A DNA stretch of 52,834 nucleotides from an uncultured Rhodospirillales bacterium (GTDB taxonomy: Bacteria; Pseudomonadota; Alphaproteobacteria; Acetobacterales; Acetobacteraceae): contig CAIMOR010000432.1 of NCBI GenBank assembly GCA_903843125.1, positions 1 to 52,834 on the forward strand, in the 5' to 3' direction. Positions 7,089 to 34,510 of the stretch are shown piece after piece. The notes under the pieces are model-generated. The model saw nothing but the letters and a program-made list of their open reading frames with translations, was not told the origin of the DNA and searched no databases. A program made the position numbers and the translations under genes. Position 1 is the first letter of the stretch; the number at the start of each line of letters is the position of its first letter.

Positions 7089-7411
7089 CTGAGCAGGACA
7101 ACACTCGCCATCGCCGCCCCGGCGATGGCGAGCGCCTCCGACAGGGCCGGCCAGCTGCGCATGACCCCGGCGCGCAGCACCAGCGCATTGAGCGCGAGCG
7201 AGCCGATCACCCCGGCCAGCGGCCCCCACCAGTTCAGCTGCCAAAACCCCCATCCCAGCAGTGCCAGCCAAAGCCCGAAGGCGCCGCGGCCCAACACCAT
7301 GAACAGCCGGTCGCCGAAGCGGGATGCGGGGCGCAACCCAGGGTCGGTGCTGCGCGCCTCGATCATCGCGGCAACGGCAAGGGCCAGCAGGGCAGGGAAA
7401 TAGAAACGCAT
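7085..7411 (-). CDS. small hydrophobic membrane protein, unknown function
   Basis: A 108-residue, strongly hydrophobic protein with about three or four predicted membrane helices (residues 4-16, 37-60, 62-84 and 88-106), separated by a short basic loop EARSTDPGLRPASRFGDR. It somewhat resembles the isoprenylcysteine-methyltransferase/NnrU type of small membrane proteins, but I see no diagnostic motif. The stop overlaps the stop of the convergent MBL-fold gene by 4 bp. It starts 187 bp from the divergent CoxL-type gene. A real gene is supported by the clean run of membrane segments. Function unknown. Confidence 0.6.
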   Translation of the reverse strand: MRFYFPALLALAVAAMIEARSTDPGLRPASRFGDRLFMVLGRGAFGLWLALLGWGFWQLNWWGPLAGVIGSLALNALVLRAGVMRSWPALSEALAIAGAAMASVVLLS

Positions 7412-7598
7412 GGGCTGTTCCGGCCTGTTGGTTGGGTGGCCGGGTTCGCCCCGGCCCTCGCGGGCAGGTCGGTGGGTCCCCGGCGACCTGTTCGCCTCAA
7501 CTCTGCCGTGCGCGCCCCGCTGTCAACGGCCGGTAGTGGGGTCGCGCAAGGCGCCAAGCTGGCTTATCGTGCACTGCAGCAACCGAGGGACGCGGCCC

Positions 7599-17745: not shown

Positions 17746-20700
17746 ATGGCAGGTAAGGGCGGCGCTGGCCCCAGGAGCAGGCGCGCTGCTGCGCGTCCGG
17801 TTGCAGACAACGTGCAGCCCGCACCGTCCGGGTCACAGGCTCGCCTGCCCGCCGCGGAGCCGCCGGCTGCTGCCAATGCAAATGTGCCAACCACGCCCAG
17901 CTTTCGCATGTACCTGGTCAGCCCGCTGCTGGTCGGTCCGCTGTCGGCCTGGGAAGCGCTGTTCGCCCATGCTGCCGGGCTCGGCTGCAATGTCGTGTTG
18001 GTGGCACCCCCGGGCCAACCAGGCCCGACCGGGAACCTCTACCACCTTGGCGACCCCGACCTGCCGCACCCCTGTCTGGCCACGTCGGGCAGTATGCCGC
18101 AGGCCTTGGCGCAGCTTGCGGACTCTGCCCGGGTCCATGGCCTGGCCCTGTACTTGGACCTGGTACTGGACCGCGTGGCCAGCGGCGGCAGCCTCGCTGC
18201 CCGACACCCAGACTGGTTTGCCCTCGCCGCGGCCGAAGGGCCACCCGACCCGCGCCAGCCGCCAACGGAGGTTGGAACCGCTGCGGCCCGATGGGAGGTT
18301 CCCGGGTTGGCCATGGAGTGGCGTCAGCGCATTGGCGCCTGGGTTGCGGCGGGCGTGGCCGGCTTCCGCTGCCTGCACCCAGATGCTGTTCCCGCCGCTT
18401 TTTGGCGCAGCCTGACGGCTGAGTTGCCGGAGACGCGCTTTGTCGCCTGGACTCCCGGCCTTGCCGCGGAAGCGCAACTCGGACTGGCCGGTCTGGGCTT
18501 CGCTGCCTGTTGCAACAGCTTGGCCTGGTGGGACCTGCGTGGCGAGTGGCTGGCCGAGGAATCGCGCCGGCTGAGGGGCGTGGCCCCGGCCCTGGCCACG
18601 GTGGAGCCGCCCTTCGGGCCGCGCCTGGCCGCGGCGGAGCCGGATGCCCGCCTCGTCGAGCACCATGTCCGCCGCCAGTTGTCGGTTGCGGCCGGGCTGG
18701 GTGCGGGGATGGTGCTGCCGATGGGCTGCGAGTACGGCGCGCTGCGCCCGCTCGATGCCACGCGCGACCGCCCCGGGGATTGGGCCTGGCTGCAGGCCAA
18801 TCCCCCACACGATTTGCGCGATGCCGTCCGCGCCGCCAATGCCCGGCTGGCGCGGCAAGGGCTTGAACCGGTGGAATTGCACCCGCTCGCCGGTCCAGGC
18901 GGCCGGGCGGCGGCGCTGTTGTGCGAGCAGCCCGCCGGCGCCCGTGTAGTGGTCGCCAACACGTCGCTGCGGCAGGAAGCGAGGCTGCCGGTGGCAGCGC
19001 TGCTGGCCCTGGCCGCGCAGCCGGTCGGGCGCCTGCTGCCGCCGGAAGGTCAGCCGCTAGGGCCCGGCGAGACGCTGCGCGTGGCGGCGGGCGAGGTGGT
19101 TGTGCTGGCCGCCGAAGCGGCCCGCCCTGTGCTGGCGCCCGCCCGGCCGGAACCCGGCAAGCGGCACACCACCGCTGGCGAAACCGCCATTGCCGCAGCC
19201 TGCGCTCCGCGCATCGGCATCGAGACCGTGACCCCCGCTGTTGATGCGGGACGCTTCGCCGCCAAGCACGTGTTGGGTGAAAGCGTCACCGTCAGCTGCG
19301 ACCTGGTCTGCGACGGTCACGACAAGCTCGCGTCCATGCTGCGTTGGCGCCCTGCCGATGAGGTGGACTGGACCGAGGTGCCGATGCGCCCGCTGGGCAA
19401 CGACCGCTGGAGCGCCGCCTTCCCGCTGCAGCGCCTGGGGCGCCACGTGTTCTGCGTGGAAGCCTGGCGCGACGCCTTTGCTACCTACCGCGACGAGCTG
19501 GACAAGAAGCACGCCGCCGGCCTCGACCTGACCCTGGAACTGGAGGAAGGCCGCTTGCTGCTGGCGCGCGCGGCCTGCCGTGCCGGGGGCGCGCTGGCCG
19601 AGTTGGCGCAGAACCTGGCCGAGGCGGGTATGGCGGAGCGCCTGCATTGCCTGCTGGCCCCGGACACGGCTCGCCTGATGGCCGCCGCCGACGACCGCCC
19701 GTTCCGCACCAGCAGCGTCGAGCTACCGGTGGAAGCCGAGCGCCGCGCCGCCGCCTTCGCCGCCTGGTATGAACTGTTCCCGCGTAACTACGGTGGCCTG
19801 CGTGGGGTTATCGAACACCTGCCGCATATCCGCGCCATGGGGTTCGACGTGCTGTACTTCCCGCCGATCCATCCGATCGGCCGGACCAACCGCAAGGGTC
19901 GCAACAACAGCCTGGAACCGGCAGCCGACGACCCCGGCAGCCCCTACGCCATCGGCAGCGAAGCCGGCGGCCACGATGCATTGGACCCCGGCCTCGGCAC
20001 GCTGGAAGACTTGGCCGCCCTGCGCGACGCCGCAGCGCGGCATGGGCTGGAGCTGGCCTTGGACTTCGCCATCCAGTGCAGTCCGGACCACCCCTGGCTG
20101 AAGCAGCACCCCGAGTGGTTCGACTGGCGACCGGATGGCTCGCTGCGCTATGCCGAGAACCCGCCGAAGAAATACCAGGACATCGTCAACGTCGACTTCT
20201 ACGGCGAAGGCGCGGTGCCATCGCTGTGGCTGGCACTGCGCGATGTCGTGCGGTTCTGGTGCGACCAGGGCGTGCGGATCTTCCGCGTCGACAATCCGCA
20301 CACCAAGCCGCTGCCGTTCTGGGAATGGCTGATCGGCGAAATCCGTGCACACCACCCGGATGCCATCTTCCTGGCCGAAGCGTTCACCCGGCCGAAGGTG
20401 ATGTACCGTCTCGGCAAGCTCGGCTTCACGCAAAGCTACAGCTACTTCACCTGGCGCAACACGAAGGCCGAGATCACCGAATACCTGACCGAGCTGGCGA
20501 CGCCTGAGATCGCCGCGATCTATCGGGCGAACTTCTTCGTCAACACGCCCGACATCAACCCGCCCTTCCTCCAGGAAGGAGGCCGTGCCGCGCATCTGAT
20601 CCGCGCCGCGCTGGCCGCGACCACCGGTGCGGTATGGGGCGTGTTCCAGGGCTTCGAGCTGTGCGACGCCACGCCGCTGCCCGGGCGCGAGGAATACCTC

Positions 20701-21108
20701 GACAGCGACAAGTACGAGGTTCGCCAGCGGCCGCAGCGAGCCGCCGGCGATATCGTCGAAGAAATCACCCGGCTCAACGCGATCCGCCGGGCCAATCCGG
20801 CGTTGCACCGACAGACAGGGATCGCCTTCCACAATGCTTACAACGACCAGGTGTTGTGGTTCCGTCGCGCGGACCCGACCCGCGACAACGTTCTGCTCAT
20901 CGGCCTCAGCCTGGACCCCTACCAACCGCAGCAGGCCACGGTGGAACTGCCACTGTGGGAATGGGGCCTGCCGGACGGCGCCAGCCTGGAGGCCGAAGAA
21001 CTGATGCACGGCCACCGCTTCACCTGGCAAGGCAAGCAGCAGCAATTGCGCTTCGATCCGGCCATGCCCTTCGCCATCTGGCGCGTACGCCCGGGAGGCG
21101 AGGCATGA
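17746..21108 (+). CDS. glgE: maltosyltransferase GlgE with N-terminal pseudo-GH13 extension
   Basis: Alpha-1,4-glucan:maltose-1-phosphate maltosyltransferase, which extends glucan by maltosyl units from maltose-1-phosphate. At 1120 residues it is far longer than the approximately 660-700 of classical GlgE. Residues about 490-690 are the GlgE N/S (DUF3416) domain (IGIETVTPAVDAGRFAAK). The catalytic GH13_3 barrel follows, with nucleophile Asp849 (FRVDNPHTKP), acid/base Glu878 (LAEAFTRPK) and Asp936 (NTPDINP). The nucleophile-acid spacing of 29 equals Streptomyces GlgE (394/423). Residues about 55-480 look like a second, inactive GH13 barrel plus beta-sandwich (see findings). Residues 1-54 are low-complexity, so the start could instead be the ATG at 17908. 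First gene of the seven-gene trehalose/glucan operon; its TGA overlaps treS. Confidence 0.95.
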   Translation: MAGKGGAGPRSRRAAARPVADNVQPAPSGSQARLPAAEPPAAANANVPTTPSFRMYLVSPLLVGPLSAWEALFAHAAGLGCNVVLVAPPGQPGPTGNLYHLGDPDLPHPCLATSGSMPQALAQLADSARVHGLALYLDLVLDRVASGGSLAARHPDWFALAAAEGPPDPRQPPTEVGTAAARWEVPGLAMEWRQRIGAWVAAGVAGFRCLHPDAVPAAFWRSLTAELPETRFVAWTPGLAAEAQLGLAGLGFAACCNSLAWWDLRGEWLAEESRRLRGVAPALATVEPPFGPRLAAAEPDARLVEHHVRRQLSVAAGLGAGMVLPMGCEYGALRPLDATRDRPGDWAWLQANPPHDLRDAVRAANARLARQGLEPVELHPLAGPGGRAAALLCEQPAGARVVVANTSLRQEARLPVAALLALAAQPVGRLLPPEGQPLGPGETLRVAAGEVVVLAAEAARPVLAPARPEPGKRHTTAGETAIAAACAPRIGIETVTPAVDAGRFAAKHVLGESVTVSCDLVCDGHDKLASMLRWRPADEVDWTEVPMRPLGNDRWSAAFPLQRLGRHVFCVEAWRDAFATYRDELDKKHAAGLDLTLELEEGRLLLARAACRAGGALAELAQNLAEAGMAERLHCLLAPDTARLMAAADDRPFRTSSVELPVEAERRAAAFAAWYELFPRNYGGLRGVIEHLPHIRAMGFDVLYFPPIHPIGRTNRKGRNNSLEPAADDPGSPYAIGSEAGGHDALDPGLGTLEDLAALRDAAARHGLELALDFAIQCSPDHPWLKQHPEWFDWRPDGSLRYAENPPKKYQDIVNVDFYGEGAVPSLWLALRDVVRFWCDQGVRIFRVDNPHTKPLPFWEWLIGEIRAHHPDAIFLAEAFTRPKVMYRLGKLGFTQSYSYFTWRNTKAEITEYLTELATPEIAAIYRANFFVNTPDINPPFLQEGGRAAHLIRAALAATTGAVWGVFQGFELCDATPLPGREEYLDSDKYEVRQRPQRAAGDIVEEITRLNAIRRANPALHRQTGIAFHNAYNDQVLWFRRADPTRDNVLLIGLSLDPYQPQQATVELPLWEWGLPDGASLEAEELMHGHRFTWQGKQQQLRFDPAMPFAIWRVRPGGEA

Positions 21109-24100
21109 GCCCACCCCGCGACCCGCACTGGTATCGTGACGCTGTCATCTACCAGTTGCACATCAAGAGCTTCTTCGACGCCAACAATGATGGTGTGGGC
21201 GATTTCACCGGGCTGCTCGAAAAGCTGGACTATATCGCCGAACTCGGCGTTGACACGCTGTGGCTGCTGCCTTTCTACCCCAGCCCGCGGCGGGACGACG
21301 GCTACGACATCGCCGACTATCGTGGCGTCCACCCCGATTACGGCAACCTGCACGACGCCCGTCGCTTCATCCGCGAAGCGCATGCGCGCGGCCTGAAGGT
21401 CATCACCGAACTCGTCGTCAACCACACCAGCGATCAGCACCCGTGGTTCCAGCGCGCCCGCACCGCGCGGCGCGGCAGCAGCCACCGCGACTACTATGTC
21501 TGGTCGGACAGCGACCAGAAATATCCGGAAACCCGCATCATCTTCCTCGACACCGAAAAGTCCAATTGGACCTGGGACCCCGTGGCAGGTGCCTATTTCT
21601 GGCACCGATTCTACAGCCACCAGCCCGACCTGAACTTCGACAACCCGCGGGTGCTGAGCGAAGTGCTGAATGCCATGCGCTACTGGCTGGACCTGGGCGT
21701 GGACGGGTTGCGGCTTGACGCCGTGCCCTACCTGGTGGAGCGCGAGGGCACCAACAACGAGAACCTGCCCGAGACGCACGAGGTGCTGCGCCTGCTGCGC
21801 GCCAAGCTGGATGCCAACTACCAGGGCCGCATGCTGCTGGCCGAAGCCAACCAATGGCCTGAGGACACCCAGCAATATTTCGGCAACGGCGACGAATGCC
21901 AGATGGCGTTCCACTTCCCGCTGATGCCGCGGATGTACATGAGCATCGCGCAGGAAGACCGCTTCCCCATCACCGACATCCTGCGCCAGACGCCGGACAT
22001 TCCCGAAGGCTGCCAGTGGGCGATCTTCCTGCGGAATCACGACGAGCTCACGCTCGAAATGGTCACCGACCGCGAGCGTGACTACCTGTGGAGCACCTAC
22101 GCCGCCGACAAGCGCGCCCGTATCAACCTGGGCATCCGACGCCGCTTGGCGCCGCTGCTGGAACGCGACCGCCGGCGGATCGAGCTGATGAACGGCTTGC
22201 TGCTGAGCATGCCCGGCACGCCCGTCATCTATTACGGCGACGAGATCGGCATGGGCGACAACATCTTCCTGGGCGACCGCGACGGCGTGCGTACACCCAT
22301 GCAGTGGAGCCCCGACCGCAATGGCGGCTTCAGCAAGGCCGACCCGGCGCAGTTGGTGCTGCCCTCGATCCAGGACGCGCTCTACGGTTTCCAGGCGGTG
22401 AATGTCGAAGCCCAGGCGCGCGACCCGCACAGCCTGCTGAACTGGATGCGCCGCATGTTGGCGGTGCGCCGGCGCAGCCGCGCCTTCGGCCGCGGTGCGA
22501 TGCGTCTGCTCTACCCCGGCAACCGCAAGGTACTGGCCTATCTGCGCGAGCATGAGGAGGACACCATCCTCTGCGTGTTCAACCTCAGCCGCAGCGCGCA
22601 GGCGGTGGAACTGGACCTCTCCGCGCTGGCTGGTCGCGTGCCGGTGGAGATGCTCGGCGGCACCGCCTTCCCGCCCATCGGCCAACTGCCCTACCTGCTG
22701 ACGCTGCCGCCCTACGGCTTCTACTGGTTCGTGCTGGCGGCCGAGAAGGCGCTGCCACCCTGGCACGTGCCCAGCCCGGAGGCGCTGCCGGACCTGCGCA
22801 CGTTGGTGTTGCGCGCTGGCGTGAAGGACTTCCTGGACGACGCCGTCCGACGCGAGTTGGAACGCGAGGTGCTGCCTGCCTGGCTGCCGAAGCGGCGGTG
22901 GTTCGCCGCCAAGGACGCCCGACTGCGCAAGGTAACGCTGCAATCCATTGCGACGCTGCCGGAATCGCAGGGTTCGGTCGTCATGGCCGAGGTTTGCGTG
23001 CAGCTTGAAGACCGCACCGAACACTACGCGCTGCCCCTCGCGGGCGTCGAGGATCTGGAGGGCGTGCCGCCGCTGGCGTCGCAGCTCGCGCTGTCGCGGT
23101 TGCGGCAGGGCCGTCGCGTTGGGTTCCTGACCGACGCCTTCGCCGCAGACCGGATGCCGCCGGCGGTGATTGCGGCGCTGCAGGCGCGCCTGGTGCTGGC
23201 GACGGTCGATGGCGACATCTGCTTCCGCCCGACCGCGCGGCTGGCGGAAACGGCGTTGCCGGAATCACCAGCGGTGCGTCGGCTTTCCGCGGAGCAGTCG
23301 AACTCCTCGCTCATCTTCGGCGAGGCTGTCGTCATCAAGATCATTCGCCGCCTGAACCCGGGTATCCATCCGGAAGCGGAAGTGACGCGCTACCTCACCG
23401 ATGCAGGCTTCGCCAACATCGCGCCGTTGTTGGGCGAGGTGGTGCGCGTGCCGTCCGACGGCGAACCCTGCACCTTGATGCTGGTGCAGGGCTTCGTGCG
23501 CAACCAGGGCGACGGCTGGCAATGGACGTTGGATTGGCTGCATCGCGCGGTTGACGAAGCTGCATTGACGGACGAGTCCGAGGCCGACGTCTTCGCGGGC
23601 TATGTCGCGTTTGCCTCGGCTCTGGGCCAGCGACTTGCAGAGCTGCACGTGGCACTTGCGGCGCCGACGGAGGACGCAGCCTTCAGTCCCGAAGTTGCGA
23701 CCGAGGCCGACCGCACCGCCTGGGCCGACGGCGTCCTGTCGCAGCTCGACCCCGCATTGGATCAGGTGGAAGGCCGCGCGGATGCGGCGGCGCTGCTGGC
23801 AAAGGCTCCGGCGTTGCGTGCCGCAGTGCAGCGGCTGGCGCACGCGGCCGAAGGCGCGCTCAAGACGCGCGTGCATGGGGATTTCCATCTTGGCCAGGTG
23901 TTGGTGGCGCAGGGCGACGCCGTGATCGTCGATTTCGAAGGGGAGCCAGCGCGGCCGTTGGCGGAGCGGCGCGCCAAGGCAAGCCCGATGCGCGATGTCG
24001 CGGGCCTGCTGCGCAGCTTCGACTATGCCGCGGCGGTGGCCATCACCAACAAGGCTTCGGCGACCGCGACCGCGGCGCCGACCGAACGTCGCACCGCGCT

Positions 24101-24305
24101 GCTGGAACGCTGGCAGCGTGAGGCCGCGGCTGCCTTTCTCGACGCCTATGCGGCCGTCTCGCCGATCGGCGCGCAGGCACTGCTGGACTTGTTCCTCATC
24201 GAGAAGGCGGCCTACGAAATTCGCTACGAGGCCGCCAATCGGCCGGGCTGGGTCGGTGTGCCCCTGCGCGGGCTGACGGCGCTTGCCGAGCGACTGACCG
24301 CATGA
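21105..24305 (+). CDS. treS: trehalose synthase-maltokinase fusion (TreS-Mak/Pep2)
   Basis: Bifunctional 1066-residue protein. Residues 1 to about 545 are a GH13 trehalose synthase isomerising trehalose to maltose: [25 protein letters not shown], nucleophile Asp205 ([11 protein letters not shown]), acid/base Glu247 (LLAEANQWP), and the [11 protein letters not shown] transition-state aspartate. Residues about 590-1066 are maltokinase: [14 protein letters not shown], the kinase catalytic loop [11 protein letters not shown], the metal motif [11 protein letters not shown], and [10 protein letters not shown]. The product, maltose-1-phosphate, is GlgE's substrate, so fusion channels trehalose into glucan. 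A GGGAGG site sits six bases before the ATG inside the end of glgE. Its TGA overlaps the glgB ATG. The fusion is known in other bacteria. Confidence 0.97.
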
Positions 24306-26458
24306 CGCCGGACGCGATAGAGGCCCTGGTGCAGGGCCGCCACGGCGATCCGTTCGCGGTGCTCGGGCGTCATGGCGATGAGCTCCGCAGCTTCCAGCCC
24401 GGGGCGCAATCAGTGCAGGTGCTGGCACGGGACAGCGGTGAGGTAATGGCGACGCTGCCACGCCTCCACCCTGCCGGCCTGTTTGCAGGCCCGGTGCCGC
24501 CGGGCGCCTACCGGCTGCGGGTCGAATGGCCTGCGCTGCCGGAGGAGACCGAGGACCCCTACAGCTTCGGCCTGCTGCTTGGTCAGCTGGACCTGCATCT
24601 CTTCGCCGAGGGCCGGCACTTCGAGCTGGGACGTGTGCTCGGCGCGCAGGCGATGCAGGTTGATGGCATCCTTGGCGTGCGGTTTGCCGTCTGGGCACCG
24701 AATGCGGGCCGCGTCTCCGTGGTCGGCACCTTCAACGGCTGGGATGGCCGCCGGCACCCAATGCGGCGGCGCGCCGAGGCCGGCGTGTGGGAGTTGTTCA
24801 TCCCCCGCCTGCTGCCGGGCACCCTGTACAAATACGAAATCCTGGGCCGCGACGGTCAGGTGCTGCCGTTGAAGGCCGACCCGCTGGCACTGGCGACGGA
24901 AGCCCCGCCGGAGACGGCATCGCGCGTCGCCAACCCGCAGCCGCATCGCTGGCTGGATGAGCGCTGGATGCGCGAGCGGGCGCAGCGCCAAGCGCCGGAC
25001 GCGCCGATCTCGATCTACGAGGTTCACGCGGCTTCCTGGTGGCGCGATCCCGCAGGCGAATCGCCTGGCTGGGAAGGCCTGGCCGACCGGTTGATCCCCT
25101 ACGCACAGGGCATGGGCTTCACGCACCTGGAGCTGCTGCCGATCATGGAACATCCGTTCGGTGGCTCCTGGGGCTACCAGCCGCTTGCCATGTTCGCGCC
25201 CAGTGCGCGGTTCGGCGCGCCGGAGGGCTTTTCCACTTTCGTCGACCGTGCCCATGCGGCCGGGCTCGGCATCATTCTCGACTGGGTGCCCGCGCATTTC
25301 CCCACCGACGCGCACGGCCTGTATCGCTTCGACGGCACCGCCCTCTATGAGCACGCCGACCCGCGCGAGGGATTCCACCGCGACTGGAACACCGCGATCT
25401 ACAATTTCGGGCGCAACGAGGTCCGCGGCTTCCTGCTGGCCTCCGCGTTGCATTGGCTCGAGCACCACCATGTCGATGGACTTCGCGTCGATGCCGTCGC
25501 CAGCATGCTGTATCGTGACTATTCCCGGCCGGCGGGCGAGTGGCTGCCAAACCGCCATGGTGGCCGCGAGAACGAGGAAGCCGTGCGCTTCCTGCAGGAA
25601 CTCAACGCCGTCGTTGCCGAGCGCTGTGAAGGCGCCGTCGTCATCGCCGAGGAAAGCACCGCTTGGCCAGGCGTCACCAAGCCGACGCAGGAAGGCGGCC
25701 TTGGCTTTGCCTACAAGTGGAACATGGGGTGGATGCACGACACGCTCCACTTCATGGAGCAGGACCCGATCAATCGGCGCTGGCACCACGACAGCATGAC
25801 CTTCGGTCTGGTCTATGCGTGGACCGAACGCTTCGTGCTGCCGCTCAGCCACGACGAGGTGGTTTACGGCAAGGGTTCGCTGCTGACCAAGATGCCCGGC
25901 GACGAATGGCAGCGCTTCGCCAACCTGCGCGCCTATCTGGGCTTCATGTGGACCCAGCCCGGTCGCAAGCTCATCTTCATGGGTGGCGAGTTCGCGCAGC
26001 CGACCGAATGGAACCACGACATCCAACTGAACTGGCCGCTGTTGGATGACCCGCGGCATCGCGGCATGCAGCGCCTGGTGCATGACCTGAACGCCGCCTA
26101 TCGCACCTATCCTGCGCTCCACCGGCAGGACGCCACGCCGGATGGCTTCCAGTGGGTGGTCGCAGACGACCGCGCGAACAGCGTGTTCGCCTGGCTGCGG
26201 CTCGGCAGCTTCGAGGATCCGCCCGCGTTGGTCATCGCCAACTTCACCCCGGTGCCGCGCCATGGCTATCGCGTGGGCGTGCCGCGCGGTGGCAGTTGGG
26301 ACGAGGTGGTGAACTCCGATGGCGCTGCCTACGGCGGCACGAACTGCGGCAACGGCGGCGCAGTCACTGCCTTGGCGACACCGAGCCACGGCTTCGATTA
26401 CGCCCTGGAGTTGTTCCTGCCACCGCTCGCCACCATCATCCTGCTGCACCGGGGTTGA
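24302..26458 (+). CDS. glgB: 1,4-alpha-glucan branching enzyme
   Basis: GH13 branching enzyme, 718 residues, close to the E. coli length (728). It introduces alpha-1,6 branches into the linear glucan made by GlgE. It has an N-terminal domain, a CBM48 module ([25 protein letters not shown], about 120-145), the barrel with YEVHAASW and [16 protein letters not shown], nucleophile Asp397 ([16 protein letters not shown]), acid/base Glu450 ([12 protein letters not shown]), and [15 protein letters not shown]. The 53-residue gap between nucleophile and acid/base is that of E. coli GlgB. ATGA overlap with treS-mak. A 66-bp gap follows before treZ, the only real spacer in the operon, with no obvious promoter boxes. 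Confidence 0.97.
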
Positions 26459-26524
26459 TGTGAGGCGCTTGCCACAACCCAGCTCCGCCCGACCGCGCAG
26501 CACCAGCAAGCAGGCGCACAGGTC

Positions 26525-28339
26525 ATGAGCGGTTACGCGCAGCCCACCACCTGGGGCGCAACGTTGTTGGCACCAGACCGCACGCGGTTCCGTCTATGGG
26601 CGCCGGACGCCGTGGCACCGCAGCTTGAGATTGAAGGCTTGCCACCGCAGCCGATGCAAGCCGGGTCGGACGGCTGGTACGCGCTGGAAGCGGCGGTTGG
26701 CGCCGGTTCGCTCTACCGCTTCCGCGTCAGCCCAGACCTTGCAGTACCCGACCCGGCCGCGCGCCTGCAGGCCGGCGGGGTCCACGACGCCTCCATCGTC
26801 GTCGACCCCGGCGCCTATGCCTGGCAGAACCCGGATTGGCAGGGCCGGCCCTGGCACGAGGTGGTGCTGTACGAGGTGCATGTCGGCGCACTCGGCGGTT
26901 TCGCCGGGGTACAGGCCCAGCTGCCGCGCCTGCGCGACCTCGGGGTAACCGCCGTTGAACTGATGCCCGTGGGCGCCTTTCCAGGCCGGCGCGGCTGGGG
27001 CTACGACGGCGTACTGCCCTACGCACCGCACGCGCCCTACGGCACGCCGGATGAACTGAAGGCCTTGGTCGACGCCGCCCACGGCCTGGGTCTGATGATC
27101 TTTCTCGACGTGGTCTACAACCACTTCGGACCCGACGGTGCCTATCTGCACGCCTTCGCCAAGGGCTTCTTCAACGAAGGCATCCACACGCCCTGGGGCG
27201 CCGCCATCGATTTCCGCCAACCGGCGGTACGCGCCTACTTCGAAGACAACGCGCTGCTCTGGCTCAACGAATACCGCTTCGACGGCCTGCGCTTCGATGC
27301 CGTCCATGCCATCGCCGAAGCCGAATGGCTGGATGTGCTGGCGGCCCGGTTGCGCCACGAGACCGCTGGGCGCCACGTTCACCTGGTGCTGGAGAACGAA
27401 CGGAACGCCGCCCGGCACCTGCAGCCGAACGGCGGCTTCGATGCCCAGTGGAACGACGACGGCCACAACATCCTGCACCCGCTGCTGACCGGTGAGCGCG
27501 AGGGCTACTACGAGGACTTCTGTGACGCCGGTGCCGAGAAGCTGGCGACCGTATTGGCCGAGGGCTTCCTGTTCCAGGGCCAGTTCTCGCCCCACCTCGG
27601 TGCCCCGCGTGGCGAGCCGAGCGCACAGTTGCCGCCGACCGCCTTTGTCCTGTTCCTGCAGAATCACGACCAGGTCGGAAACCGTGCCTTCGGAGAGCGA
27701 TTGGCGGCGTTGGCTTATCCTCAGACGCTGCAGGCCGCGGCGGCGCTCCTGCTGCTCGCGCCGCAGATCCCGCTGCTGTTCATGGGAGAGGAATGGGCGG
27801 CCTCTGCGCCCTTCCTGTTCTTTACCGACCACAATGCGGAGCTTGCGCCGTTGGTGACGCAGGGGCGGCGCAAGGAGTTCGCCAAGTTCGCCGCCTTCCA
27901 GGACCCGGCCAGGCGCGAGACCATCCCCGACCCGAACGACGCAGCGACGTTCCAGGCCTCGATCCCCAACCTGGCCGAGGCTGCGACCCCGCACCATGCC
28001 GCAATGCTGGCGCTGCACCGGCACCTGTTGGCGCTGCGGCATCGGCACATCGTTCCCCGCCTGCCGGGCGCCCGGGCCGTTGGCGCGCATGCCGTCGGTG
28101 ACCGTGCGGTATTGGCGCGATGGCGGCTGGGCGACGGCGCCATACTGACCATTGCCTGCAACCTCGGTGAGCGACCCGCCGCCTGCGCCGCCAGCGGCCA
28201 ACCGATCTTCGAATCGATAGCCGGTGCCGCCGGCACCCTGGGCACCGGAAGCCTGCTGCCGCGTTGCTGCATCGTTCTGCTCGACCGCCCTGACCAAACC
28301 GGTCTGGCCGACGGGCCGATGATGAAGGGGCCGGGATGA
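26525..28339 (+). CDS. treZ: malto-oligosyltrehalose trehalohydrolase
   Basis: GH13 hydrolase of 604 residues that cuts the alpha-1,4 bond next to the terminal trehalose of maltooligosyltrehalose, releasing free trehalose. It has a CBM48-like N-terminus (TRFRLWAPDAVAPQLEIEG), YEVHVGALGGFAGVQ, ELMPVGAFPGRRGWGYDG, and YNHFGPDG. The nucleophile is Asp258 (FDGLRFDAVHAI), the acid Glu290 (LVLENERNA), and FLQNHDQVGNRAFGERL follows. These are diagnostic of TreZ rather than GlgB. It acts after TreY, encoded two genes downstream. Its TGA overlaps the malQ ATG. Confidence 0.96.
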   Translation: MSGYAQPTTWGATLLAPDRTRFRLWAPDAVAPQLEIEGLPPQPMQAGSDGWYALEAAVGAGSLYRFRVSPDLAVPDPAARLQAGGVHDASIVVDPGAYAWQNPDWQGRPWHEVVLYEVHVGALGGFAGVQAQLPRLRDLGVTAVELMPVGAFPGRRGWGYDGVLPYAPHAPYGTPDELKALVDAAHGLGLMIFLDVVYNHFGPDGAYLHAFAKGFFNEGIHTPWGAAIDFRQPAVRAYFEDNALLWLNEYRFDGLRFDAVHAIAEAEWLDVLAARLRHETAGRHVHLVLENERNAARHLQPNGGFDAQWNDDGHNILHPLLTGEREGYYEDFCDAGAEKLATVLAEGFLFQGQFSPHLGAPRGEPSAQLPPTAFVLFLQNHDQVGNRAFGERLAALAYPQTLQAAAALLLLAPQIPLLFMGEEWAASAPFLFFTDHNAELAPLVTQGRRKEFAKFAAFQDPARRETIPDPNDAATFQASIPNLAEAATPHHAAMLALHRHLLALRHRHIVPRLPGARAVGAHAVGDRAVLARWRLGDGAILTIACNLGERPAACAASGQPIFESIAGAAGTLGTGSLLPRCCIVLLDRPDQTGLADGPMMKGPG

Positions 28340-30372
28340 CTGAAAGCCAACTGCAGGCGCTGGCGGCAGCGGCGGGGGTGCAGCGCCGGTGGGAAGACGT
28401 GCATGGCCAGGCGCACGACGTGGGCGACCTGACGCTCCGCGCCATTGTGGCTGCGCTCGGCCTGCCGGTGGATAGCGATAGTGCCATGCGGGACGCCCAG
28501 GCGTTGCTGGCGGCGGCACAGCAGCGGCTGCCGCCGATGCTCACGATGACCTGCGGTCCCGATGGCCTTGCGGTGCCCGGCAGCGAAGCTGGCGATCGTT
28601 ATCGGTTGGAACTGGAGAGCGGTGAACTGCGCGAGGGCCGGCTGGAGCAGGGTTGGGCCGGCGAGGCGCGGCTGCCCGCGCTGAACGAGCCAGGGTATCA
28701 CCGGCTGGAATCGGGCGGCGCGCATTGCCGGGTGGCTGCGGCGCCGTCGCGCTGCTTCAGCTTGCTGGAAGCGGGCGCCGTCCGGCACGACGCCGCGGCG
28801 CCCTGGGCGCTGGCGGCGCAACTCTACGGACTGCGCCGTGCTGGCGATCTCGGCATCGGTGATTTCGGCGGCGTGGCACAGTTGGCGCGCAGCGCGGGGC
28901 GTCTGGGTGCCGCCGGCTTGGCCCTAAGTCCGATGCACGCGCTGTTCAGCGCCGACCCGACCAGGTACGGCCCCTATGCGCCGTCGACGCGCCTGCTGCT
29001 GAACGTGCTGCACGCCGATCCCGCCGCCGCTCTCGGTCCGCAGGCGGTGCCAGCGAATGACGACGCGACGTTCATCGACTGGCCCGCTGCGGCCCGCCGC
29101 AAGCTGGCGCGGCTGCAGGCGCTGTTTGATCGGACGCAGGACCACCCTGGCTTCGTCGCCTTCCGCAACCAGGCCGGCCCGGCGTTGGAGGAGCATGCGC
29201 GCTTCGAGGCACTGCACGCCCATCTCTACGGCAGCGACCCCGCGCTGTGGCATTGGCGCTACTGGCCGGCGGAATACCGCACGCCGCATTCGGCAGGCGT
29301 GCAGCGCTTCGTCCAGCACCACGCCGGCGATGTCGCCTTCCACGCCTTCTGCCAATGGCTCGCCGACGCCTCGCTCGCGGCAGCGCAGCGCGCCGCACGT
29401 CAGGCAGGGATGTCGATCGGGCTGATCGCCGACCTGGCCGTCGGCACCGATGGCGGCGGCAGCCATGCCTGGTCCCGCCAGGACGAGGTGGTCAGCGGCT
29501 TCAGTGTCGGCGCCCCGCCGGATGTCTTCTCGCCACTCGGCCAGGACTGGGGGCTCACGGCCTTCTCGCCGCTGCAGATGCGCGCTGGTGGCTTCAGTGC
29601 CTTCCTGGAATTGCTGCGTGCGGCCATGCGCCATGCCGGCGGCATTCGGCTGGACCATGCGATGGGGCTGCAGCGGCTCTGGGTGGTTCCGTCCGGCATG
29701 GGGCCGGCCGAGGGCGCTTACCTGAGCTATCCCGTGCAGGATCTGCTGCGGCTGCTCGCGCTGGAATCGCATCGCCACCGCTGCATCGTCATCGGCGAGG
29801 ATCTTGGCACTTTGCCGGAGGGCTTCAACCAGCGCATGGCGCAGACCGGCATCCTTGGCATGCGCGTACTGTGGTTCGAGCAGGAAGAGGATGGCCGCTT
29901 CCGTGCGCCGCAGCAGTGGCCACAGGACGCCGCCGCCATGACCACGACGCACGACCTGCCGACCGTCGCCGGTTGGTGGCGTGGTCGCGATATCGAATGG
30001 CGGGAGAAGCTCAATCGCTTCCCGTCGCGTGAGGCGGCGCAGCAGGAACATGCCCAGCGGCGGCAGGACCGCGTCGCGTTGTGGGATGCCATGCGCGAAA
30101 GCCGCGCCGCCGAGGGCGAGCCGCCGAACGACCCGCAGCAAGTGGTCGATGCCGCCTTGGTCCACGTCGCCAGCGCCCGATGCTCGCTTGCCATCCTGCC
30201 GCTGGAGGATGCCTTGGGCCTGGAAGAGCAACCCAACATGCCCGGCACGGTAGCCGGCCATCCGAACTGGCAACGGCGCCTGCCCGGCGAGGCCGCCGAC
30301 CTGCTGCACGACCCCGTCGTCGCGCGCCGCCTCGGCAGTTTCGCCCGCGCCCGGCCGAGACGCGCCTCGTGA
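28336..30372 (+). CDS. malQ: 4-alpha-glucanotransferase (amylomaltase)
   Basis: GH77 disproportionating enzyme, 678 residues, a typical bacterial long form with an N-terminal extension (LTLRAIVAALGLPVDS). It moves maltooligosyl units between glucan chains. Catalytic residues: nucleophile Asp440 (GGIRLDHAMGLQRLWVVP), acid/base Glu488 (VIGEDLGTLPEG), and TTHDLPTVAGWW with the third aspartate. The 48-residue spacing matches E. coli MalQ (448/496). IGLIADLAVGTDGGGSHAW and DVFSPLGQDWGL are standard. Between treZ and treY it would shorten or lengthen glucan chains to suit TreY and the branching cycle. Its TGA overlaps the GTG of treY. Confidence 0.96.
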   Translation: MTESQLQALAAAAGVQRRWEDVHGQAHDVGDLTLRAIVAALGLPVDSDSAMRDAQALLAAAQQRLPPMLTMTCGPDGLAVPGSEAGDRYRLELESGELREGRLEQGWAGEARLPALNEPGYHRLESGGAHCRVAAAPSRCFSLLEAGAVRHDAAAPWALAAQLYGLRRAGDLGIGDFGGVAQLARSAGRLGAAGLALSPMHALFSADPTRYGPYAPSTRLLLNVLHADPAAALGPQAVPANDDATFIDWPAAARRKLARLQALFDRTQDHPGFVAFRNQAGPALEEHARFEALHAHLYGSDPALWHWRYWPAEYRTPHSAGVQRFVQHHAGDVAFHAFCQWLADASLAAAQRAARQAGMSIGLIADLAVGTDGGGSHAWSRQDEVVSGFSVGAPPDVFSPLGQDWGLTAFSPLQMRAGGFSAFLELLRAAMRHAGGIRLDHAMGLQRLWVVPSGMGPAEGAYLSYPVQDLLRLLALESHRHRCIVIGEDLGTLPEGFNQRMAQTGILGMRVLWFEQEEDGRFRAPQQWPQDAAAMTTTHDLPTVAGWWRGRDIEWREKLNRFPSREAAQQEHAQRRQDRVALWDAMRESRAAEGEPPNDPQQVVDAALVHVASARCSLAILPLEDALGLEEQPNMPGTVAGHPNWQRRLPGEAADLLHDPVVARRLGSFARARPRRAS

Positions 30373-33122
30373 CCTTGCCCACCGCGACCTGCCGCCTGCA
30401 GTTCCACGCCGGCTTCACCCTCGATGACGCCGCTGCCGTGGTGCCCTACCTGAAGCGCCTCGGCATCAGCCACCTGTATGCCTCGCCAGTGTTGAAGGCG
30501 CGGCCGGGCTCGACGCATGGCTATGACATCGTCGACCACAACCAGATCAACCCCGAGCTGGGCGGCATGCCCGCGCTGCTTCGCCTCAGCACCGCGCTGA
30601 AGGCCGCCGGCCTAGGCCTGATCCTCGACATCGTGCCGAACCACATGGGCGTCGGCGGCTCCGACAATGCCTGGTGGCTCGACGTGCTGGAGTGGGGGCG
30701 GCAGTCGCGCTACGCCGCCTTCTTCGATATCGACTGGGAGCCGCCGGATCGCAGCTTGCATAACCGGCTGCTCGCGCCGTTCCTCGGCGCGCCCTATGGC
30801 GAGGCATTGGCCAGCGGCGACCTCACGCTGCAGTTCGAGGCCGCGACCGGCAAGCTCTTTGCGCAGTATTTCGAGCATCGCTTCCCCATCGCGCCGCAGC
30901 ACTACGGCCAGGTGCTGCGCGCTGCGGGTTCGCCGTTGTTGGAGCCGCTGGTCACCAGCTTCGGCCAGGTCACGCTGGTGCAGCGAGACCGCGTCGCCGG
31001 GCGCCTCGCCGCCGAGGATGCGTGCCGCGCCTTGGCCGCTTTCGCCGAGCAGCCGGAGGGGTTGGAGGCCATCAACGCCGCGCTGGCTGCCTTCGGGCCC
31101 GGGATGCCGGAGGGCCGCGAGCGGCTGCATCGGCTGCTGGAACGGCAGAACTACAAGCTGGTCTGGTGGCGCGCCGCGGCCGACGAGATCAACTGGCGCC
31201 GCTTCTTCGACATCACCTCGCTCGCCGGGCTACGGGTGGAGGAAGCCGAAGTGTTCGACGCCACCCATGCGCTGGTGGAACAGCTCTACGCCGATGGCGT
31301 CATCGATGGCGTTCGCGTCGACCATGTCGACGGCCTCGCCGACCCGAGGGCCTATTGCCGGAAGCTGCGCCGCCGGCTGGAAGCGGCCCGCCCGGGTAGC
31401 GATCCCCTGGTCTGGATCGAAAAGATCCTGGCGCCATTCGAGCCGCTGCGGACCGATTGGCTGGTCGATGGTTCGACCGGCTACGACTTCATGGACGAGG
31501 TCGCCGGCGTGCTGCACGACCCCGCCGGCGAGGCGCCGCTGACCGATATCTGGGTCGAGGCCACCGGCCGCGCCGCCCGCTTCGAGGACGAAGCCCGCGA
31601 GGCCCGTCGCCAGATTCTGCGCGACAACCTGGCGAGCGAGCTCAACGCCACCGCCGCGGCGCTGAAGCGCGTGGCGAACCGCGACCTGGTGACGCGCGAC
31701 TTTACCTTGACCGCGCTGCGCCGCGCCCTGGCCGAAGTGCTCGCGCACTTTCCGGTCTACCGGCTCTATGTCGGCCCCGGCGGCCGCAACGCCGAGGACA
31801 AGCGCCTGCTGGACTGGGCCCTGGCCGGCGCGCGCCGCACCGTGCGCGCCACCGAGCGCCCGCTGCTTGACCTGCTGGATGGCTGGCTGGGCGGCGACCC
31901 GCCGCGCAGCCTGGCGCTGGTGCTGCGCCGCGAGCGGCTGGCCGCCGCGGTCCGCTTTCAGCAACTCTCGGCCCCGGTGGCGGCCAAGAGCGTCGAGGAC
32001 ACCGCCTTCTATCGCTATGGCCGCCTGCTCAGCCGCAACGAGGTCGGCAGCGACCCCGGGCATTTCTGCCTCTCGCCGGCCGGCTTCCACGCCGCCGCCC
32101 GCGCCCGCGGCCGCGACTTCCCCGGTGCCCTGCTGGCAACGGCGACGCACGACCACAAGCGCGGCGAGGATGCCCGCGCCCGCCTCGCGGTGCTGTCGGA
32201 GGTGCCAGCCGAATGGGGCGCCGCGCTGTCCCGCTGGATCAGGCTGAACGCCAGCCTGAAGAAGGAAGTCGACGGCACGCCGGCACCTGACGCCGCCGAC
32301 GAGGTGATGCTGTACCAGACGCTGCTCGGCGCCTGGCCGCTCGGCGAAGATATCGCCGACTTGGAGGCGCGCGTCGCCGCCTGGCAGGAAAAGGCGGTGC
32401 GCGAAGCCAAGCGACGCAGCGAGTGGGCGGTGCCGAACCAGCCCTATGAACAGGCCTGCCGCGACTTTCTGGCGGCAATGCTGGCGCCCGACCGTGCCAG
32501 CCGGCTGAGCGACGAACTGGCCGCCTTCGCGCATCGCCTCGCCCCGGCCGGCGCCGTGAACAGCTTGGCGCAACTGCTGCTGCGGTGCACTGCACCGGGC
32601 GTACCAGACCTGTACCAGGGCACCGAGTTCTGGGACTTCTCGCTGGTGGATCCGGATAATCGCCGCCCGGTGGACTGGACCGGACGCGCCGCGGCCCTCG
32701 ATGGCAGCGACCCGGCATCGCTGCTGCCGCACTGGCGCGACGGCCGGGTCAAGCAGGCGCTGCTGGCCCGGTTGCTGGCCCTGCGCGCCGCCCAGCCTGC
32801 CCTGTTCGCGGCCGGCGACTACCTGCCGCTAGCGGCCGAAGGACCGGCCGCGGCGCATGTGCTGGCCTTCGCCCGCCGCCATCGCGGTGCCGTGGTCGTC
32901 AGTGTCGTCACCCGGCTTTCCGCGGCGCTGCTCGGCGAATCGCAACTGCCCCATGTTCCGGTGGCGGCATGGTCGGGAACTACGCTCGCGCTGCCGCGTG
33001 TTGGCAAGGCACGCGGTTGGCGGGACGCACTGACGGGCCATGCCCTGGACGCCGGGGGTGACCAGGTCCCGCTCGGCGACATCCTCTCCCGCCTGCCGGT
33101 GGCGTTGCTGGAGGTGGTATGA
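30369..33122 (+). CDS. treY: malto-oligosyltrehalose synthase
   Basis: GH13 intramolecular transglucosidase, 917 residues, within the 770-950 range of TreY. It turns the reducing-end alpha-1,4 bond of a glucan into the alpha,alpha-1,1 bond of a trehalosyl cap for TreZ. Diagnostic motifs: TATCRLQFHAGFTLDDAAAV, YASPVLKARPGSTHGYD, DIVPNHMGVGG, RRFFDITSLAGLRVE, nucleophile Asp318 (VRVDHVDGLADP), EKILAPFEPL with the acid/base glutamate, and ATHDHKRGEDARARL. The GTG start overlaps the malQ stop (GTGA), and I prefer it because it yields the canonical TreY N-terminus. Its TGA overlaps the otsA ATG. Confidence 0.96.
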   Translation: MTLPTATCRLQFHAGFTLDDAAAVVPYLKRLGISHLYASPVLKARPGSTHGYDIVDHNQINPELGGMPALLRLSTALKAAGLGLILDIVPNHMGVGGSDNAWWLDVLEWGRQSRYAAFFDIDWEPPDRSLHNRLLAPFLGAPYGEALASGDLTLQFEAATGKLFAQYFEHRFPIAPQHYGQVLRAAGSPLLEPLVTSFGQVTLVQRDRVAGRLAAEDACRALAAFAEQPEGLEAINAALAAFGPGMPEGRERLHRLLERQNYKLVWWRAAADEINWRRFFDITSLAGLRVEEAEVFDATHALVEQLYADGVIDGVRVDHVDGLADPRAYCRKLRRRLEAARPGSDPLVWIEKILAPFEPLRTDWLVDGSTGYDFMDEVAGVLHDPAGEAPLTDIWVEATGRAARFEDEAREARRQILRDNLASELNATAAALKRVANRDLVTRDFTLTALRRALAEVLAHFPVYRLYVGPGGRNAEDKRLLDWALAGARRTVRATERPLLDLLDGWLGGDPPRSLALVLRRERLAAAVRFQQLSAPVAAKSVEDTAFYRYGRLLSRNEVGSDPGHFCLSPAGFHAAARARGRDFPGALLATATHDHKRGEDARARLAVLSEVPAEWGAALSRWIRLNASLKKEVDGTPAPDAADEVMLYQTLLGAWPLGEDIADLEARVAAWQEKAVREAKRRSEWAVPNQPYEQACRDFLAAMLAPDRASRLSDELAAFAHRLAPAGAVNSLAQLLLRCTAPGVPDLYQGTEFWDFSLVDPDNRRPVDWTGRAAALDGSDPASLLPHWRDGRVKQALLARLLALRAAQPALFAAGDYLPLAAEGPAAAHVLAFARRHRGAVVVSVVTRLSAALLGESQLPHVPVAAWSGTTLALPRVGKARGWRDALTGHALDAGGDQVPLGDILSRLPVALLEVV

Positions 33123-34510
33123 GTCGCATCGTGGTCGTCTCCAACCGGGTGCCCTTGCCGGCCGGCAATGCTGGCCAGGCCGGCGGCTTGGCGGTGGCGC
33201 TGCTTGGGCTGATGCGACGGCGCGGTGGCCTTTGGTTCGGCTGGTCGGGGGCCGTCAGCGACGTGACCGAGCCCAGCTTCACCAGGCGCGGCGCGGTCGG
33301 CTACGCCACGCTCGACCTGACGGAGGCAGAGCATCGCGGCTTCTACACGGGCTACGCGAACGGCGTGCTGTGGCCGATGCTGCATGGGTTGTCCCATCTG
33401 ATGCAGTTCCGCCGGCAGGACCTGGAGAGCTACCGCGAGGTCAACCAGCGCTTTGCCGACCGTCTGGTGCCGCTGCTGAAGCGCGAGGACCTGATCTGGG
33501 TGCATGACTATCACCTGTTGCCGCTGCCGGGTGCGCTGCGCGGACGGGGGGTGGGGCTGCCGACCGGCTTCTTCCTGCACGTTCCCTTTCCGGCACCGGA
33601 GGCGGTTGCGGTTGCGCCGGGCATCCGCGGGCTGCTGAAGGATGTGCTGGCAGCCGACCTGCTGGGCTTCCAGACCGAGGCGGATCGAGAGAATTTCGCC
33701 GCAGCCGCCATCACCTTCACCCCGGCGCAGCGCTTCGACCAGCATCACCTGCAGTTCGGTGGCCGTCAGGTGCGGCTCGGTGTCTTCGCGGCCGAGATCA
33801 GCGCGCGGGACTTCGCGGCCACCGCTGCCGTGCAGTGCCATGCGGAGCCCGCGCGACTACTGGCGCGCAGCCTGTCCGGCCAAGCCCTGCTACTCGGCGT
33901 CGATCGGCTGGACCCGACCAAGGGCCTGCCCGAGCGCCTGGAGGCCTTTGGCCGGGTGCTGGCCCGGCGCCCCGGTCGCGACGTGACCTTCCTGCAGATC
34001 GCCGCGCCCTCGCGGGAGGAGGTCGCCGCCTACCGCGACCTCAGGCAGGACCTGGATTCAGCCGGTGGCGCCCTGAACAGCGACCACGGCGAACCGGACT
34101 GGACCCCGCTGCGCCTGATTGCCCGACCGCAGGCGCGTGACACGGTCGCGGGCTTCATGCGGCTGGCGCGTGTCGGCCTGGTGACGCCATTGCGCGACGG
34201 CATGAACCTGGTAGCCAAGGAGTATATCGCGGCACAGGACCCCGCCGACCCCGGCGTACTGGTACTGTCCCGCTTCGCCGGCGCCGCAGCGCAGTTGCAG
34301 GACGCGCTGCTGGTCAACCCGCACGACGTGGAAGCCATGGCCGAAGCCGTGTTGCAGGCGCTGGACATGCCGCTGGGCGAACGCCAGGCACGCTGGCGCG
34401 CCTGTTGGGCCGCCATCGCCGGCGCCTCGCCGGAAGGCTGGGGCGAAGCCTTTCTGCGCGCGCTGTCGCCGGAAGCCCTGGCCGCGCTGCCGGTCGCCGG
34501 CCGGGCGTGA
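33119..34510 (+). CDS. otsA: alpha,alpha-trehalose-phosphate synthase (UDP-forming)
   Basis: GT20 retaining glycosyltransferase, 463 residues, like E. coli OtsA (474). It makes trehalose-6-phosphate from UDP-glucose and glucose-6-phosphate. Active-site residues fall at or within one of the E. coli positions: Tyr76, Trp85, Asp130 (VHDYHLLPLP), Arg263 and Lys268 (GVDRLDPTKGLPER). VTPLRDGMNLVAKEYIAAQDP closes the donor site. One oddity is residues 223-227: the PIGI segment usual in GT20 reads FAAEI here. A GGAGG site lies four bases before the ATG at the end of treY. It is the last gene of the run and no OtsB phosphatase is adjacent. Confidence 0.95.
   Translation: MSRIVVVSNRVPLPAGNAGQAGGLAVALLGLMRRRGGLWFGWSGAVSDVTEPSFTRRGAVGYATLDLTEAEHRGFYTGYANGVLWPMLHGLSHLMQFRRQDLESYREVNQRFADRLVPLLKREDLIWVHDYHLLPLPGALRGRGVGLPTGFFLHVPFPAPEAVAVAPGIRGLLKDVLAADLLGFQTEADRENFAAAAITFTPAQRFDQHHLQFGGRQVRLGVFAAEISARDFAATAAVQCHAEPARLLARSLSGQALLLGVDRLDPTKGLPERLEAFGRVLARRPGRDVTFLQIAAPSREEVAAYRDLRQDLDSAGGALNSDHGEPDWTPLRLIARPQARDTVAGFMRLARVGLVTPLRDGMNLVAKEYIAAQDPADPGVLVLSRFAGAAAQLQDALLVNPHDVEAMAEAVLQALDMPLGERQARWRACWAAIAGASPEGWGEAFLRALSPEALAALPVAGRA

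Follow-up and report, generated by a model that had tools for sequence, protein, structure and literature searches.

Organization of the locus

The window, i.e., the whole stretch of 52,834 nucleotides analyzed here, encodes a GlgE protein of 1120 amino acids at positions 17746-21108 of the + strand. The layout of this protein, the replaced active-site positions of its N-terminal part and the run of genes that follows in the same direction (21105..34510, +) are as follows, with the evidence given in brackets:

17746..17901, + strand: Ala/Pro-rich N-terminal tail, residues 1-52 (sequence; outside the modelled folded unit)
17902..19119, + strand: GH13 unit predicted to be catalytically dead, residues 53-458, with an 8-stranded barrel, a domain B loop at ~141-185 and a C-terminal sandwich at ~377-458 (AlphaFold, PDB matches, profile match to the protein's own core)
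18373..18375, + strand: Leu210 at the nucleophile position (Asp in intact-triad relatives; Asp849 in the core)
18448..18450, + strand: Trp235 at the acid/base position (Glu in intact-triad relatives; Glu878 in the core)
18610..18615, + strand: Pro289-Phe290 at the position of the transition-state stabilizer motif (His-Asp in intact-triad relatives)
19120..19206, + strand: linker, residues ~459-487 (full-length model)
19207..21105, + strand: ordinary GlgE part (Pfam, PDB GlgE match, motifs)
21105-24305, + strand: treS-maltokinase (Pfam)
24302-26458, + strand: glgB (Pfam)
26525-28339, + strand: treZ-like gene (Pfam)
28336-30372, + strand: malQ (Pfam)
ending at 33122, + strand: treY-like GH13 gene (Pfam)
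33119-34510, + strand: GT20 trehalose-6-phosphate synthase-like gene (Pfam)

The middle of the linker (residues 464-478) has a pLDDT below 50 in the full-length model. The GlgE part behind it consists of an N/S domain (488-666; PF11896, 8e-58), a catalytic domain in which Asp849, Glu878 and Asp936 are present, and a C domain (1028-1107; PF21702, 2.9e-14). PF00128 was matched as well, and a PDB search with this part returned GlgE at an E-value of 7e-164. The succession of glgE, treS-maltokinase, glgB, treZ, malQ, treY and GT20 is a usual run of GlgE and trehalose genes; the names treZ and treY are our presumptive ones, based on Pfam matches and gene order. At 7410-9965 the window also holds a gene for a molybdopterin-type dehydrogenase, and a gene ~50% identical to it lies ~1.3-1.5 kb from the fused glgE of Azospirillum (L050-L054, L056). 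This shared neighborhood is probably a coincidence.

The N-terminal segment is a complete GH13 unit

An initial annotation, made from motifs, had proposed that residues ~55-480 repeat the plan of the catalytic half of GlgE. The motif positions it gave are right, both in the N-terminal segment (His131, HPDWF at 154, FRCLHPDAVP at 207 with Leu210, VAWTPG at 233) and for the counterparts in the core (His766, HPEWF at 788, FRVDNPHTKP at 846 with Asp849, LAEAFTR at 876 with Glu878). AlphaFold, supplied with an alignment of 28 sequences including that of the window, models residues 53-458 with a pLDDT of 92.5 and a pTM of 0.89. The model comprises all elements of the GH13 fold, i.e., a (beta/alpha)8 barrel with its eight strands, a loop domain (domain B) after strand 3 and a C-terminal sandwich, and the PDB matches agree with it. 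Thus a GH13 unit is present as proposed, within limits that had to be moved to ~53-458, given that residues 1-52 form a tail and ~459-487 a linker. The beta-sandwich-like stretch expected at ~400-470 was found as strands at ~377-458.

Among solved structures, the best VIA-align match was 3dhu, the maltose-forming amylase of L. plantarum (Z 33.4, 3.5 A over 370 residues). GlgE, the GH13_3 maltosyltransferase (3zss, 4u33, 5cgm), has the same fold as the window domain, and with a Z of 32.9 for 4u33 it is tied with 3dhu, as rows with Z within 1 of each other are. Foldseek gave GlgE as the top match. Since both programs return very many GH13 chains, the rank inside GH13 was not used to assign a subfamily. 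The debranching enzyme 7eku scored below 3dhu and GlgE (Z 28.8).

Searches of Pfam, NCBIfam and the PDB with the window segment alone gave weak results, and homology became clear only once relatives were added. With phmmer, the segment alone matched 4gkl (E 0.0012), 3dhu (0.006) and one unrelated entry (0.5) in the PDB, with no GlgE among the matches. No Pfam family reached its cut-off in the segment, and none matched the trimmed window domain at E<=0.01. The only Pfam match in the segment, to the debranching enzyme glucanotransferase family PF14701, stayed below the cut-off and covered residues 61-156 only; like PF00128, this family matches 9/28 relatives at E<=0.01. A profile of related N-terminal domains, from which the row of the window was excluded, recovered the window's own GlgE core with 110.0 bits (E 1.4e-33), whereas the best of 200 shuffles reached 1.9 bits and the reversed core -0.2. 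With a profile of the A1 set only, again without the window row, the core scored 79.6 bits, the best shuffle stretch in the output shown being 4.4. A chance likeness between the N-terminal segment and the core is thus rejected (110 bits vs. 1.9 for the best of 200 shuffles), and we conclude that the N-terminal segment is a complete GH13 unit.

Loss of the catalytic triad

In GH13 enzymes the nucleophile and the acid/base sit at the ends of barrel strands 4 and 5. Leu210 and Trp235 are the last residues of these two strands in the model. In an alignment of 87 GH13 domains, Leu210 falls into the column of Asp849 and Trp235 into that of Glu878, which bears out the earlier reading that leucine stands in place of the nucleophile and that VAWTPG is the counterpart of LAEAFTR. 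The Asp nucleophile, Glu acid/base and Asp stabilizer of active GH13 enzymes are absent from the window domain and present in 81/133 distinct related loci. Judged by these residues, the window domain is predicted to be catalytically dead, i.e., a pseudoenzyme; it and its relatives that have lost triad residues are called dead domains below. One might argue from the complete fold, and from Arg208 and Asp138, which are 100% conserved in the dead set, that the domain could still be an active enzyme working through other residues. However, with Leu, Trp and Pro-Phe all three catalytic positions are replaced, and we hold such an activity to be highly improbable.

Distribution of intact and dead domains

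For the survey of relatives, a genome_contigs scan was performed with seven intact-triad domains, and the best 80 of 426 confirmed relatives were kept. These 80 come from Azospirillum, Skermanella, Methylobacterium, Marinobacter, Rubrobacter and MAGs labelled as several other groups. Altogether, 133 distinct loci out of 161 were counted, 28 being dropped for an identical stretch shared with a kept locus; L143 (genome G047) was also left out, as its fetched region starts inside the gene. The part of the G047 domain that is seen in L021 has a strongly degenerate look.

The initial annotation had asked whether the catalytic residues are always lost in the long form, and they are not. The triad is intact in 81/133 loci, with the domain fused to GlgE in 54, encoded by a separate gene next to glgE in 15 and by a separate gene elsewhere in 12. 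All separate copies are therefore intact (27/27), a count that is biased because the scan patterns (WGDLAE or GFDxxFNS) came from intact domains. Trp occupies the acid/base position in 47/133 loci, all of them fused to GlgE, and one more is cut by a contig end. Other losses from the triad were found in 4/133 loci, which are likewise all fused to GlgE.

Separate genes with an intact triad are found, for example, in Rubrobacter taiwanensis (L073) and Sulfuricella (L090). In four loci (L071, L078, L079, L100) the neighbor is not glgE, and such a gene lies directly before treZ and treY, a pairing that hints at a shared role in short glucans. Ten long frames were inspected near solitary intact-triad copies; five of them matched no Pfam family at E<=1e-5, the other five carry families unrelated to glucans, and some of the ten may be non-genes. 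Two peculiarities of neighboring genes were observed as well. In L106, L113, L116, L117, L120, L122 and L123, a single long open frame that lies upstream of the gene for the domain-GlgE fusion contains both malQ-like and treY-like stretches. Such frames occur in Methylobacterium, Enterovirga and a Rhizobiaceae record and are perhaps MalQ-TreY fusions. In L114 (~7277-9344), a separate intact-triad gene is followed by a glgE that is broken into two frames that overlap, which may be due to a sequencing error or a frameshift.

At the level of the class, the domain was detected by profile search (E<=1e-40) in 17 of 289 sampled genomes, including that of the window, 16 times fused and once separate. 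This separate copy (G183), the only one from the class profile searches, is intact. All 17 genomes fall within the 32/289 that have a GlgE N/S domain. By their motifs, 7 of the 17 are intact, 7 have Trp and 3 show other losses, the window's genome included in these numbers. Protein and profile searches detected the domain in other families of the class, where the nucleophile (mostly as FRCDAAY), AETLG, and ESHDT or ENHD are present. In the order to which the window belongs, all 30 loci (the window's included) fetched from 42 positive genomes have Trp. Within the window's family, the GlgE N/S domain occurs in 66/150 genomes, and 61 of these 66 possess a frame of at least 900 aa, a length that by itself is no proof of the domain.

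Origin by fusion or by internal duplication

Three features of GlgE are missing from the N-terminal domain: the NPPKKY stretch, an Asn directly following the nucleophile, and the N/S domain. The match to PF11896 is confined to residues 488-666, so that the second part of the protein carries the N/S domain and the N-terminal domain does not. The residue after the nucleophile is Asn in 25/25 cores, Ala in the intact-triad relatives and His211 in the window domain, and no NPPKKY stretch was found in the N-terminal domain. The Asn and KKY motifs correspond to the phosphate site of GlgE. Lys355 of the S. coelicolor GlgE is reported as part of this site.

A quick tree of 87 rows separates the 54 N-terminal domains from the 25 GlgE cores, with a support of 100 for each of the two clades, and in a tree of 31 rows the two are sisters at 99/99; both trees carry a long-branch warning. 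The intact-triad domains form one clade in the 31-row tree and do not in the quick tree. That the N-terminal domain is the sister of GlgE and not of the AmyB-like proteins (GH13_48) is not firm, the p-AU being 0.07 for either alternative to the sisterhood with GlgE, one of which is a common clade of N-terminal domains and AmyB-like proteins.

The initial annotation regarded the segment as a second copy of the protein's own catalytic domain. An internal duplication, in which the catalytic half of GlgE was copied in the window's lineage and the copy decayed, would account for two GH13 halves with the same order and spacing of motifs, and it could draw on the sister position of N-terminal domains and cores. 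However, if six dead domains and their own six cores are forced into one clade, the tree becomes 199 log-likelihood units worse (p-AU 2.9e-66), and the two halves of the window-type protein are thus not each other's nearest relatives. Moreover, stand-alone genes for the domain, with its triad intact, are known. Since dead domains and their own cores stand apart in the trees, an internal duplication in the window's lineage is rejected, and we give it next to no chance; a much more ancient duplication, from before the two families arose, is conceivable. From the broader wording of the initial annotation, duplication or fusion followed by decay, the second option survives: the data agree with a separate gene that was joined to the 5' end of glgE and whose product afterwards lost its active site.

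Taken as a whole, the best explanation, and in our judgment quite a probable one, is that the window domain descends from a fused partner enzyme and now sits, dead, on a normal GlgE. The starting point would have been a separate GH13 enzyme encoded beside glgE, from a so far undescribed clade in the vicinity of GlgE and the GH13_48 maltose-releasing amylases, and its gene would then have been fused to the 5' end of glgE. In the lineage that contains the window, the acid/base Glu would have been exchanged for Trp and His-Asp for Pro-Phe, most simply once, and most members of this dead lineage would later have lost the nucleophile Asp. Thereafter the dead domain would have persisted on its flexible linker as an accessory that the protein can do without, with purifying selection relaxed but still acting on it.

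Putative activity of the intact-triad relatives

The best profile matches of the intact-triad domains are GH13_48 maltogenic amylases, i.e., 3dhu from L. plantarum (5e-27) and AmyB 4gkl (2.4e-25), ahead of GlgE (1.8e-19), and the three-domain plan is the same. An exo-mode of maltose release is described for T. neapolitana AmyB and L. plantarum Lp_0179 (PMC11239784, PMC6815381), as is a non-reducing-end site of AmyB formed by His103 and Asp135 (PMC11239784). Equivalents of both residues are found in 33/33 intact-triad domains and 4/4 AmyB-like proteins, while 25/25 GlgE cores have the equivalent of Asp135 alone. Asp135 is part of one search pattern, so that the choice of loci biases its count in 28 of the 33 intact rows; Asp is likewise present in the remaining 5, and His103 is in neither pattern. 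The dead domains have the equivalent of His103 in 2/21 and that of Asp135 in 3/21 rows, the latter lying in domain B, which is poorly aligned in them. With Arg143 and Gly177 at these two places, the window copy is devoid of the GH13_48 exo-site as well as of the triad. Unlike GH13_48, the domain is linked to glgE and to treZ-treY, and the grouping of both in one clade has the p-AU of 0.07 given above.

The conserved residues suggest that the intact-triad relatives are probably exo-acting enzymes that cut maltosyl units from the non-reducing ends of glucans. The released maltose would feed maltokinase and then GlgE. One might speculate further, and we consider this rather doubtful, that the relatives constitute an undescribed GH13 subfamily that acts as the maltose-releasing partner of GlgE. 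The fused intact form would then be two-headed, removing as well as adding maltosyl units. In the window's lineage one head would have been switched off by a fixed Glu-to-Trp exchange and kept as a regulatory or docking part, which would have turned a remodeller into a one-way builder.

Decay, constraint and loss of the dead domain

The 21 dead domains of the 87-row tree group in a single clade with support 100, as do, with support 99, the nine sampled cores that are fused to dead domains. The acid/base position is Trp in 20/21 and Ser in 1/21 of the dead clade, and the nucleophile Asp is still found in 4/21 rows. In the simplest order of losses, the acid/base and His-Asp would have gone first and the nucleophile later. 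Outside the tree stand three fused copies with other patterns. The one of G049 (L141) has the Glu acid/base and His-Asp, lacks the nucleophile Asp and is ~65 residues shorter than the intact copy of G182 (L144) from the same genus; its decay is probably recent and independent. The other two copies are those of G312 and G281. This suggests that triads were lost separately, most clearly in G049.

If the 47 dead domains are compared with the 81 intact-triad ones, only six positions (135, 235, 272, 289, 290, 312) are conserved at >= 80% in both sets and yet differ between them. Three of the six are the acid/base and the His-Asp pair, column 235 by construction, as the dead set was chosen by Trp235. 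Within the dead set, Asp168-Pro169-Arg170 are conserved at 100%, Glu272 at 98% and Pro289 at 91%. According to the Nei-Gojobori method (dead-domain dS 0.17-0.85), dN/dS in 7 dead pairs is 0.23-0.46 for the domain and 0.11-0.29 for its own core. In 9 intact pairs, the domain has 0.12-0.33 and the core 0.07-0.41. The ratio of the domain value to the core value is thus 1.4 to 3 in the dead pairs and 0.8 to 1.8 in the intact pairs. Consequently, the dead domain is under purifying selection, but under a more relaxed one relative to its core.

Erosion was observed as well. Nine dead domains were flagged as short, six of which were confirmed by length, while L127 is cut by a contig end and L179 and L181 derive from partial profile matches. 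These six, out of 51 distinct dead domains, measure 331-381 residues and are 55-105 residues shorter than that of the window (436). In G006 (L213, G006:C6:178000-183500), the GlgE frame has 986 aa and tblastn recognizes no domain in its N-terminal part, which reflects either extreme erosion or replacement. Thus, judging from the shortened copies and G006, an intact barrel is not always needed. A further step is seen in G005, a genome from the window's own genus (L212, G005:C36:4500-11500), whose GlgE, encoded by a single open frame, has 720 aa and lacks the dead domain. The MAGK tail at the start of this protein resembles that of the window protein, a linker peculiar to it leads on to the N/S domain, and its core is ~83% identical. 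The fetched region contains no N, and no other copy of the domain was found in the genome (97% complete) at E<=1e-8. G005 is therefore a natural deletion mutant that lost the domain in frame.

Possible present role of the window domain

A decayed domain that binds glucan, or a scaffold that organizes the other enzymes of the operon, was the role initially put forward. Neither gained ground: the residues that hold the maltosyl unit are mostly lost, one congener does without the domain, and the full-length model (pTM 0.62), with its disordered linker, shows no fixed packing of the domain on the core. As a glucan-binding module, the old cleft would serve as a sugar platform on which Trp235 stacks on glucose, and it would tether GlgE to the particle. 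Such a module would make sense of the Trp at the acid/base position in 20/21 rows of the dead clade and of two other Trp residues that are kept (262, 268). Secondary malto-oligosaccharide sites that assist polymer extension are moreover known from GlgE (PMC5076824). However, the equivalents of His103 and Asp135 remain in just 2/21 and 3/21 dead domains, and Pro-Phe fills the third catalytic place. From these residues sugar binding through the old cleft appears unlikely, and we regard the module as rather unlikely.

A serious rival, if an unlikely one in our estimation, is that the domain is a functionless remnant, i.e., neutral baggage in the course of being lost. The shortened copies, the lack of a recognizable domain in G006 and the in-frame loss in G005 would all be expected of a remnant, as would a dN/dS that exceeds that of the core by more in dead than in intact pairs, and the remaining constraint could reflect only the folding and solubility of a long protein. 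On the other hand, dN/dS stays well below 1 with the frames open, 61/66 genomes of the family keep a long frame, and the dead set has conserved residues peculiar to it (Asp168-Pro169-Arg170, Glu272, Pro289). Purifying selection on the one side, and eroded copies and loss in a congener on the other, lead us to a present role that is accessory and dispensable, or perhaps to none. Since the secondary glucan sites of GlgE help with the polymer, a modest accessory role is plausible. Our tentative preference, held with a little less than even confidence, is that the domain may act through a surface other than the old cleft, stabilizing or modulating either GlgE itself or the way in which GlgE contacts the glucan particle.

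Comparison with known systems and significance

Dead GH13 partners as such are of a kind already known. Plant ISA2 and the GH13_34/35 heavy chains rBAT and 4F2hc are GH13 folds that lack activity and accompany a working protein, as the window domain does. ISA2, rBAT and 4F2hc are separate subunits. In contrast, the dead domain of the window is fused to a GH13 transferase. Where the fused proteins are named in PLSDB, they are annotated as alpha-1,4-glucan--maltose-1-phosphate maltosyltransferase or 'maltotransferase domain-containing protein', names that denote GlgE only and ignore the extra domain. In the literature searched, no title or opening of an abstract describes the domain. Novel, as far as found, are the joining of such a domain to GlgE, its occurrence as an intact gene of its own beside glgE, and the natural gradation from intact copies to complete loss.

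GlgE serves as a drug target, and every GlgE structure matched in this study represents the short actinobacterial form. The intact-triad relatives, a GH13 group for which no assay was found, may link glucan trimming to glucan building. Since intact, dead, eroded and lost versions of the domain coexist, the reason why a cell retains an inactive enzyme domain can be tested directly within a single genus.
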